The notes under the pieces were generated by a model that was given only the letters and a program-made list of their open reading frames with translations, did no database searches and was not told where the DNA came from. From Pseudoxanthomonas sp. F37 (GTDB lineage Bacteria; Pseudomonadota; Gammaproteobacteria; Xanthomonadales; Xanthomonadaceae), in the NCBI RefSeq assembly GCF_022965755.1, contig NZ_CP095187.1, positions 620,001 to 684,000 of the forward strand: a stretch of DNA of 64,000 nt, read 5' to 3'. Shown here piece by piece: positions 39,982 to 42,286 of the stretch (positions are counted from its first letter, which is position 1; the number at the start of each line of letters is the position of its first letter). Both the position numbers and the translations under genes were made by a program.

Positions 39982-41349
39982 TCAGACCAGCGAAATCGCC
40001 TTGTTCTTGCGTTCGGCCAGGCGCTTTTCCAGGTAGTGGATGTTCTGGCCGCCGGCCTGGAAGCCCTGGTCGCGCATGATGCGCTGCTGCAGCGGGATGT
40101 TGGTCTTGATGCCGTCGATGACCATCTCGCTGAGCGCCACGCGCATGCGCGCGATCGCCGTTTCGCGGTCGGGCCCGTGCACGATCAGCTTGGCGATCAT
40201 CGAATCGTAGTTGGGCGGCACGCGGTAGCCTTCGTAGATGTGCGTGTCCACGCGCACGCCGGGGCCGCCCGGCGGGTGGAAGTGCTGGATCAGGCCCGGG
40301 TGCGGCATGAAGGTATCCGGGTCTTCGGCGTTGATGCGGCACTCGATCGCGTGGCCGCGCAGCACGATGTCGGACTGCTTGATGCTCAGCTTGTGGCCGG
40401 CGGCGATGCGCAGCTGCTCGCAGACCAGGTCGATGCCGGTGATGCGTTCGGTCACCGGATGCTCCACCTGGATGCGGGTGTTCATCTCGATGAAGTAGAA
40501 GCGGCCGTCCTCGAACAGGAACTCGAACGTGCCCGCGCCGCGATAGCCGATGCGCAGGCAGGCCTCCACGCAGACCTTGCCGATCTCGTTGCGCAGTTCC
40601 TCGGTGATGCCGGGCGCCGGCGCTTCCTCGACCACCTTCTGGTGGCGACGCTGCATCGAACAGTCGCGTTCGCCCAGGTGGATGGCGTTGCCCTGGCCGT
40701 CGGCCAGCACCTGGATCTCCACGTGGCGCGGATTCTCCAGGAACTTCTCCATGTAGACCTCGCCGTTGCCGAAGGCCGCCTTGGCCTCGGACTTGGTGGT
40801 CTCGATGGCCGCCTTCAGCGCGCCCTCGACATGCACCACGCGCATGCCGCGGCCGCCGCCGCCGCCGGCCGCCTTGATGATCACCGGGTAGCCGATCTCG
40901 CGCGCGATCCGGGTGTTGGCGACGATGTCGTCGCCCAGCGGACCGCCGCTGCCGGGCACGCACGGCACGCCGGCGGCCTGCATGGCGCGGATCGCCTCCA
41001 CCTTGTCGCCCATCATGCGGATGGTGTCGGCCTTGGGCCCGATGAAGATGAAGCCGGACTGCTCCACCCGCTCGGCGAAGTCGGCGTTCTCCGACAGGAA
41101 GCCGTAGCCGGGATGGATGGCCTGCGCGTCGGTCACCTCGGCCGCGGCGATGATCGCCGGGATGTTGAGGTAACTGTCCTTCGAGGCGGCGGGACCGATG
41201 CAGACCGACTCGTCGGCCATGGCCACGTGCTTGAGGTTGCGGTCGACGGTGGAATGCACCGCGACCGTGCGGATGCCCAGGGTGTGGCAGGCGCGCAGGA
41301 TGCGCAGCGCGATCTCACCCCGGTTGGCGATAACGACTTTATCGAGCAT
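39982..41349 (-). CDS. accC: acetyl-CoA carboxylase biotin carboxylase subunit
   Basis: 455 aa ATP-grasp enzyme that carboxylates the biotin of AccB. Motifs: [20 protein letters not shown] at the start, [14 protein letters not shown] (glycine-rich ATP loop), [34 protein letters not shown] (catalytic Glu/Asn region) and [12 protein letters not shown]. Part of the first committed step of fatty-acid synthesis. It should be transcribed with accB, but a four-helix-bundle gene lies between them here. Confidence 0.97.
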
Positions 41350-41357
41350 GGGAGGGC

Positions 41358-41387
41358 CGGGAATTGGGAGTGGAGAATGGGGAATCG
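41358..41387. repeat. left inverted repeat of the S23 cassette
   Basis: 30 bases matching the complement of 41773-41802 at 26 positions, built of GGGAAT-type units. It lies between the accC start and the end of the four-helix-bundle gene. Confidence 0.8.
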
Positions 41388-41403
41388 TGAAGAGCCGGGA
41401 TTT

Positions 41404-41790
41404 TCATGACGCGTGCGCCTTCTGTTTGCCGATCGCGTTCATCAGCGCCGTGAGTCTGGCGAAGATCCGGTCGATGAGCTCGACCGGCGCCGGAGAAGCG
41501 GCTGCGAAACCGAGCCGGACCGCGATCTGTCGCTGGGTGTCGAGTTCTGCGAGCGAGCCGCGCGCGATCGAGAGGAAGCGCTGATACTCGGCGCTGGACC
41601 GGCGGGCGGCGCCTTCGGCGATATTCGAAGGAATGCTGATGGCGGAACGTCTCATCTGTGCGGTCAGGCCGAAGCGCTCGGAGTCGGGAAAGGTCTCGGA
41701 CATCCTGTAGACAATCTCCACAAGCTCCATCGAGTCGCGCCATACATCGAGCCGCTCGTGCGGTCTCTTCGACGATTCCCGATTATCCAT
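41404..41790 (-). CDS. four-helix bundle protein (S23/Avd-like) inserted in the acc operon
   Basis: 128 aa. Helical throughout, with the family motifs ERLDVWRDSMELVEIVYRMS, FGLTAQMRRSAISIPSNIAE and GAARRSSAEYQRFLSIARGS. Homologues are the S23 intervening-sequence proteins of 23S rRNA genes and the Avd proteins of diversity-generating retroelements. Its first six codons (MDNRES) lie inside the right-hand 30-bp inverted repeat, which also supplies a GGGA-type ribosome site. The gene splits accB from accC. Function here unknown; cassette mobility is inferred from the repeats. Confidence 0.85.
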   Translation of the reverse strand: MDNRESSKRPHERLDVWRDSMELVEIVYRMSETFPDSERFGLTAQMRRSAISIPSNIAEGAARRSSAEYQRFLSIARGSLAELDTQRQIAVRLGFAAASPAPVELIDRIFARLTALMNAIGKQKAHAS

Positions 41791-41802
41791 TCCCGATTCC
41801 CG
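41773..41802. repeat. right inverted repeat of the S23 cassette
   Basis: 30 bases, inverted partner of 41358-41387. It overlaps the start codon of the four-helix-bundle gene and ends 4 bases from the accB stop codon. Confidence 0.8.
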
Positions 41803-41806
41803 CAGA

Positions 41807-42286
41807 TCACCCGATGACGAACAACGGCTGGTCGAATTCGATCGGTTGGCCGCTCTCGGCCAGGACCGACAGCACCGTGCCCGACACGTCGGCTTCGATG
41901 GGGTTGAACATCTTCATGGCTTCGATGATGGCCAGCGTCTCGCCGGCCTTCACCGCCTGGCCCACGCTGACGAACGCCGGCTTGTCCGGCGCCGGCGAGG
42001 CGTAGAAGGTGCCGACCATCGGCGCGCGCACCACATGGCCGTCCGGCAGTGCGTTGCCGGGCTTGGCGGTGCCGCCGGTGGAGGCTTCGGTGGGCGAGCT
42101 CATCGGCATGGGCGCGGCCGGGCGCGGCTCGGCGTAGGCGACGGGCGCCGGGGCCGCGGGCGCCGCATAGCCGCCCTTCGGCGTGCGCGCCAGGCGCACG
42201 GACTCTTCGCCTTCCTTGATCTCGATTTCGGCCAGGTTCGACTCTTCCAGCAGGTCGATCAGTTTCTTGATTTTGCGGAGATCCAT
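41807..42286 (-). CDS. accB: biotin carboxyl carrier protein of acetyl-CoA carboxylase
   Basis: 159 aa. The biotinylated lysine lies in [15 protein letters not shown] within the C-terminal lipoyl-like domain ([20 protein letters not shown]); the middle is an Ala/Pro linker. It carries CO2 from AccC to AccA/AccD. The N-terminus ([20 protein letters not shown]) is canonical. Confidence 0.97.

Follow-up and report, generated by a model that had tools for sequence, protein, structure and literature searches.

Between accB and accC of Pseudoxanthomonas sp. F37 lies a single 445-bp unit, 41358-41802, in which a gene of the S23 family is enclosed by two inverted arrays of tandem heptamers (Table 1; coordinates are those of the window, the whole 64,000-nucleotide stretch of DNA that was analyzed). 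Arrays of this kind frame most of the S23 genes sampled in the Xanthomonadaceae and many in other phyla, and the heptamer sequence, as read from gene trees and genome-wide repeat counts, follows the S23 protein and not the host. The comparison suggests that the seven-base repeats dispersed in many bacterial genomes are the termini of mobile elements of a kind not yet described. We somewhat favor the reading that the unit is an array-ended S23 element whose protein would recognize its own array and promote insertion or replacement.

Table 1. Features of the accB-accC region in the window
Feature	Coordinates	Strand	Remarks
accB, upstream host gene	41807..42286	-	junction empty in at least 18 congeners
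Spacer, accB stop to element	41803..41806		4 nt
accB-side terminal array	41772..41802	-	GGGAATC GGGAATG GATAATC GGGAATC (minus strand)
S23 / 23S-IVP / four-helix-bundle gene	41404..41790	-	128 aa, codirectional with accB and accC
accC-side terminal array	41358..41388	+	GGGAATT GGGAGTG GAGAATG GGGAATC (plus strand), inverted relative to the accB-side array
Spacer, element to accC start	41350..41357		8 nt
accC, downstream host gene	39982..41349	-	other flank of the element

The two arms match in inverted orientation at 27 of 31 positions – and over slightly longer stretches, 41358-41394 and 41765-41802, if a small gap is allowed – and nowhere else in the 64-kb window do two 31-nt stretches within 620 nt of each other match in inverted orientation at 26 or more positions. 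The frame of inverted repeats described in the initial annotation (26 of 30 positions) is thereby borne out; what was overlooked is that each arm is itself a tandem array of four GGGAAT(N) units, variants included, with the G-rich strand running inward from both ends, and that the repeat is already known from xanthomonads (PMC4692102). The ATG of the S23 gene and the GGGA upstream of it lie inside the accB-side array, as had been noted of the start codon, and the tight fit between the host genes is likewise as described, 4 bases separating one arm edge from the accB stop and 8 the other from the accC start. RNA of the element is predicted to fold with a closing stem formed by its ends (z=-2.7). 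The view that gene and repeats form one unit is supported.

The S23/IVS protein has been known since 1993, and to our knowledge no enzymatic activity is known for the four-helix bundles of this family. The product of the cassette gene matches PF05635 (23S_rRNA_IVP; E=2e-32, 112 bits against a cut-off of 33.8) and TIGR02436 (four helix bundle protein; 4.7e-31, 107 bits against a cut-off of 24), and its solved relatives include 2gsc (XCC0516 of Xanthomonas campestris; E=5.5e-39) and 2rld. Two Avd models give 14.7 bits (cut-off 80) and 14.8 bits (cut-off 40), so that of the earlier label ‘S23/Avd-like’ the first half stands and Avd is a distant relative only. The PF05635 gene is the only one in the element, which encodes neither a catalytic domain nor a transposase, in agreement with the initial annotation; a PADLOC search gave no defense-system match for the protein. 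As cited in PMC10053308, the structure of XCC0516 (Lin et al. 2006) is a ring of five four-helix bundles.

The architecture is general. A search for repeats around four-helix-bundle genes of relatives had been suggested, and such repeats are present: among 112 Xanthomonadaceae PF05635 genes from 100 genomes (the better-scoring matches of one family search), 98, from 90 genomes, lie between inverted repeats for which a period of exactly 7 fits best, as against 0 of 392 random window places and 2 of 222 neighboring places in the same loci. The remaining 14 loci mostly have apparent degenerate arrays. Heptamers around these genes include GGGAATN, GGGATTC, GGGACTC, GGGACCG, GTGATTC, GGAACGA, GAGGCCA, AGGGCTC and AAACCTG, and exactly four units are present in 151 of 202 arms; period and unit number are constant while the heptamer sequence varies widely. 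A profile scan of genome contigs with an S23 alignment found 80 loci spread over many phyla; several candidate phyla and a Methanophagales archaeon are among the hosts. Outside the Xanthomonadaceae and Rhodanobacter, 54 of 74 loci are framed by inverted arrays (control, 2 of 149), with a unit period of 7 in 42, 8 in ten and 9 in two; on cyanobacterial plasmids 11 of 12 loci have period-7 arrays (e.g. AGGGAGT, CAGAAGT, AGGGAAC). Unit length follows the S23 tree weakly (3 of 200 shuffles as low, on a poorly resolved tree). No Rfam family was matched in 20 loci, chiefly ones without detected arrays, and these are therefore not in rRNA genes. Units of eight bases are seen at L205 (the Methanophagales archaeon contig), L212, L195, L210, L224, L249 and L251, and at L228 and L208 the array on either side of the S23 gene has over 20 units, versus the usual four.

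Which heptamer an element has appears to be a property of its protein. Placed on the tree of S23 proteins, the six heptamer groups are explained by 11 changes, as against 62.6 with shuffled labels, a result partly confounded with insertion site because the elements occupy few sites. At accB-accC alone, with the same 54 rows on either tree, the number of changes in heptamer class is 4 for S23 and 15 for accC, both trees being short and partly unresolved. Several genomes with two S23 genes (for example G000, which is the window's genome, G303, G084, G177, G222, G236 and G269) have at each gene the heptamer of that protein's own clade.

Dispersed arrays, counted as unit pairs in 62 genomes (counts that include overlapping units of one array), also match the resident gene. 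The genome's own heptamer has at least 10 matches in 55 of 56 genome-class pairs, and a class is enriched where its cognate S23 gene is present (GGGACYN, p=2.7e-10; GGGAATN, 1.5e-6; GTGAWTC, 1.9e-4; GGGATTN, 0.012). Many genomes also have arrays of a class for which they have no sampled S23 gene. Genome G081 has about 700 GGGATTN unit-pair matches and no sampled S23 gene of the class, and all 64 among the matches listed lie on one contig and on its plus strand, whereas the pairs elsewhere are inverted. The window's genome has 32 GTGAWTN matches and no S23 gene of the GTGAWTC class; these arrays are possibly relics of a lost element.

Only two PF05635 genes are present in the window's genome, at accB-accC and at nrdA-nrdB, the latter framed by another period-7 array, GGAACGA, which has about 25 matches scattered through the genome. 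The 24 gene-less inverted pairs that were read there have spacers of about 10-140 bp and include copies cognate to its S23 genes. Repeats without the gene, which the initial annotation had set down as telling against a mobile cassette, do occur, with tens to hundreds per genome, yet they are gene-less pairs carrying the heptamer of the resident gene. Gene-less and gene-bearing elements have an outer GCC and an inner AAGCG motif in common, as expected if the gene-less forms are internal deletions or minimal ends of gene-bearing ones. No compensatory matching between arms was found in gene-less elements, an element's own arms being no more alike than foreign arms (p=0.86); arm pairing is thus not specifically maintained, which fits recognition of a single unit rather than of a hairpin.

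At two junctions followed across the genus (G000:C1:465620-465735 and 466595-466710, L034; congeners L295-L324), gene-less elements vary much as the S23 cassettes do. Some congeners have such an element there and others none; in still others the pair belongs to a different heptamer class, or palindromic repeats of unrelated sequence take its place (GTAGGGTGGGC..., TGTAGAGCGGAGC..., TGTAGGAGCGGC...). It looks as though some junctions draw in palindromic elements of whatever kind.

S23 genes themselves occupy few places. The 112 sampled Xanthomonadaceae genes are at about 13 sites, with 56 at accB-accC, 28 at carA-carB and 12 at nrdA-nrdB, so that three junctions hold 96 of the 112 copies; one further copy lies between dnaK and dnaJ. 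Orientation is constant at each site: sense in 54 of 54 at acc, alike in 28 of 28 at car (sense where read), and alike in 12 of 12 at nrd, where the copy of the window's genome is antisense to the operon. An S23 element between ribonucleotide reductase genes is also found on a Nostoc edaphicum plasmid (L285), in another phylum from the window's genome (L010/L030); the element runs antisense in each, but the heptamer is AGGGAGT on the plasmid and GGAACGA in the window's genome.

Among the 29 readable accB-accC junctions in the genus, 18 are empty, nine have an S23 element – of three heptamer types – and two have a gene-less GGGACCG pair. The expectation that accB and accC would be nearly adjacent without the cassette is confirmed, the accB stop being about 10 nt from the accC start in 16 of the 18 empty junctions. 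No target-site duplication was recognized between empty and occupied accB-accC junctions, which are short and diverged.

The earlier description of the unit as a mobile cassette holds in part. Genomes have one S23 gene or a few, and near-identical copies were not found at different sites: each of the 613 pairs of similar elements has homologous flanks. Free hopping within the Xanthomonadaceae is rejected on this ground, and with 56 of the 112 copies at this junction and only about 16 outside the three main ones, transposition to new sites is rare or old. Two Calothrix plasmids with the same S23 gene are uninformative on movement because the backbone is common to both. What stands is that the cassette is exchanged whole and with sharp edges. 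Where two genomes are at least 96% identical in accC, the identity of their S23 genes is 0.80-0.98 if the heptamer class is the same (51 pairs) and 0.68-0.77 if it differs (33 pairs), and relatives that differ by a swap have flanks 97-99.8% identical around S23 genes 68-77% identical. In one such pair (G012 and G036) the two flanks have identities of 97.2% and 99.7%, and it is at the outer edges of the arrays that identity falls, to 66% across the element. The outermost array units switch class together with the gene. Near-identical flanks, divergent genes and sharp borders at the array edges together indicate that the cassette is replaced as a unit.

The strongest alternative to a role for S23 is still recombination that has its breakpoints in the arrays. 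According to this explanation, which we consider unlikely, the cassette is passive: an old, vertically inherited gene, swapped between species by ordinary homologous recombination via arrays or flanking genes, with no part for its protein. The concentration of 96 of the 112 copies at three junctions, in one orientation each and in many genera, is in its favor, as is the conservation of accB, accC, carA, carB, nrdA and nrdB, which are able to recombine. Yet no imported flank is seen: the 75 nt of accC adjoining the element have a divergence of 0.035 in swapped and 0.037 in unswapped pairs, and flank identity is 97-99.8% up to the array edge. Because the adjoining accC is no more divergent in swapped pairs, the cassette has changed without visible import of flank, and allelic recombination importing flanks is not supported. 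Passive exchange also does not account for the change of class in the outermost units along with the gene, for the match of dispersed arrays to the resident S23 class, or for the same architecture at unrelated sites in many phyla.

A second explanation takes the arrays as host G-quadruplex or hairpin regulatory elements (Rehm et al. 2015), with S23 as a co-opted regulator or a bystander. GGGAATC oligonucleotides do form quadruplexes in vitro and most of the repeats are transcribed (PMC4692102), and the ends of the S23 element form the closing RNA stem noted above. Quadruplex formation is rejected as a common principle, however, because 43 of 101 elements have four G3 tracts in neither arm (31 of 101 have them in both), and units such as GTGAATC, GAGGAAC, CAGAAGT, TTAGTGG and AAACCTG keep the architecture without G3 tracts; since close congeners have empty sites, the arrays are moreover dispensable there. 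We give this explanation little credence.

Similarly improbable is an RNA-level IVS, excised from mRNA by S23 and host RNase III and spread via reverse transcription in trans: although the gene family, size and terminal stem are as in the Coxiella IVS (PMC4990558) and the S23 family is distantly related to the Avd of diversity-generating retroelements (PMC10053308), the Avd models are far under cut-off, the reverse transcriptase that the initial annotation suggested looking for in trans is not found, there being no RVT_1 (PF00078) match in the window's genome or in most S23-bearing congeners, and the nrd copies all lie the same way, antisense to nrdA-nrdB in the window's genome, so that sense RNA of that copy is not the operon transcript.

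In the array-ended S23 element that we favor, two convergent arrays of about four heptamers would act as the ends, and the S23 protein, which in a solved relative forms a pentamer of four-helix bundles, would recognize its own heptamer array, either as DNA or as the terminal stem of the transcript. Through this recognition S23 may help the segment between the arrays to be inserted or replaced at favored gene junctions, both for the copy that encodes it and, in trans, for array pairs without a gene at other places in the genome. A two-part system of this kind, a protein and the array-bounded DNA that it would act on, is the simplest reading. We infer both the binding of S23 to the arrays and the need for S23 in exchange; the proposal is weakened because no catalytic domain is encoded, and breakpoints in the arrays could swap cassettes without S23. 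The crowding of copies at three junctions, the lack of likeness between the arms of gene-less elements, the arrays that have no sampled cognate gene and the failure to recognize a target-site duplication also count against it.

More tentatively, and with somewhat less confidence than for the single element, we propose that tandem heptamer, 8-mer and 9-mer arrays across bacteria, including the cyanobacterial and Xanthomonas repeats, may be the ends and gene-less derivatives of one ancient mobile class. Its sole product, the S23 pentamer, would read the unit length and sequence of the array and direct site-specific insertion and replacement with no conventional transposase, integrase or reverse transcriptase involved, and the 23S rRNA IVSs would be members that entered rRNA genes.

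Two old puzzles are joined here, the role of the S23/IVS protein and the heptanucleotide repeats that litter many bacterial genomes, and the pairing of protein with cognate array makes both directly testable in xanthomonads or cyanobacteria. PF05635 has been associated with cas loci (PMC3936711) and with DGR or immune loci (PMC10053308). Array-flanked S23 elements lie within CRISPR operons on an Anabaena sp. 90 plasmid (L290; cas6 / S23 / cas4) and in Picosynechococcus sp. PCC 7003 (L294; cas10 / S23 / cmr3). In CRISPR operons and in defense-association screens, members of the family may be passengers at gene junctions and not functional partners.

Among known systems, the 23S rRNA IVSs with an S23p frame (Leptospira, Coxiella) are closest in content, having in common with the element PF05635, a size of about 430-450 bp, terminal repeats of about 28-31 bp that here too form a stem around the S23 frame (the 27/31 match and the predicted closing RNA stem), fixed insertion points and sporadic distribution. 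The Coxiella 23S IVS is 428 nt long with a 28-bp stem and has tandem heptamers, GACAGAT, just upstream of the S23p start (PMC4990558); as described there, it ties rRNA-borne elements to the same plan. Unlike these IVSs, the element lies between protein genes and not inside rRNA, its relatives are sense or antisense according to site, and there are many gene-less pairs of matching heptamer; arrayed heptamer ends or cognate dispersed repeats are not given as a general feature in the IVS reports. The GGGNATC repeats of xanthomonads are of the identical class, with about four tandem GGGAATN units in an inverted convergent pair. Rehm et al. (2015) described them in Xanthomonas and Nostoc, with four units preferred and 70-75 convergent inverted pairs per genome, near stop codons; the arrays were described alone and explained by quadruplexes, generally without a link to mobile elements (PMC4692102). 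In contrast to those repeats and the cyanobacterial heptanucleotides, the arrays here are tied to S23 genes, and many of the heptamers cannot form quadruplexes. The repeat is therefore already known and its combination with the S23 gene apparently new: in the open literature searched (preprints and subscription papers lay outside the search) no paper was found that links heptamer arrays to S23 genes in general, the sole hint being the Coxiella IVS paper, and the initial annotation's suggestion of an undescribed element holds for the combination of gene and array. Papers on constant-size tandem repeats concern units of 20-21 and 52 nt and not heptamers.

The Avd proteins of DGRs are similar in distant homology and in being pentamers of four-helix bundles, whereas no reverse transcriptase, template or variable repeat is present here. 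RAYT genes are single-copy genes at fixed loci between inverted repeats, accompanied by dispersed gene-less cognate repeats; the RAYT proteins belong to the Y1 HUH transposases, and the REP sequences are imperfect palindromes. As in such REPtrons, gene-less copies of the cognate repeat are dispersed in the same genome, but S23 has no transposase domain, no Y1 HUH gene lies between the repeats, and the ends are tandem heptamer arrays. The S23 system is thus like REP/RAYT in organization and like the 23S IVS in content, with the defining features of neither.
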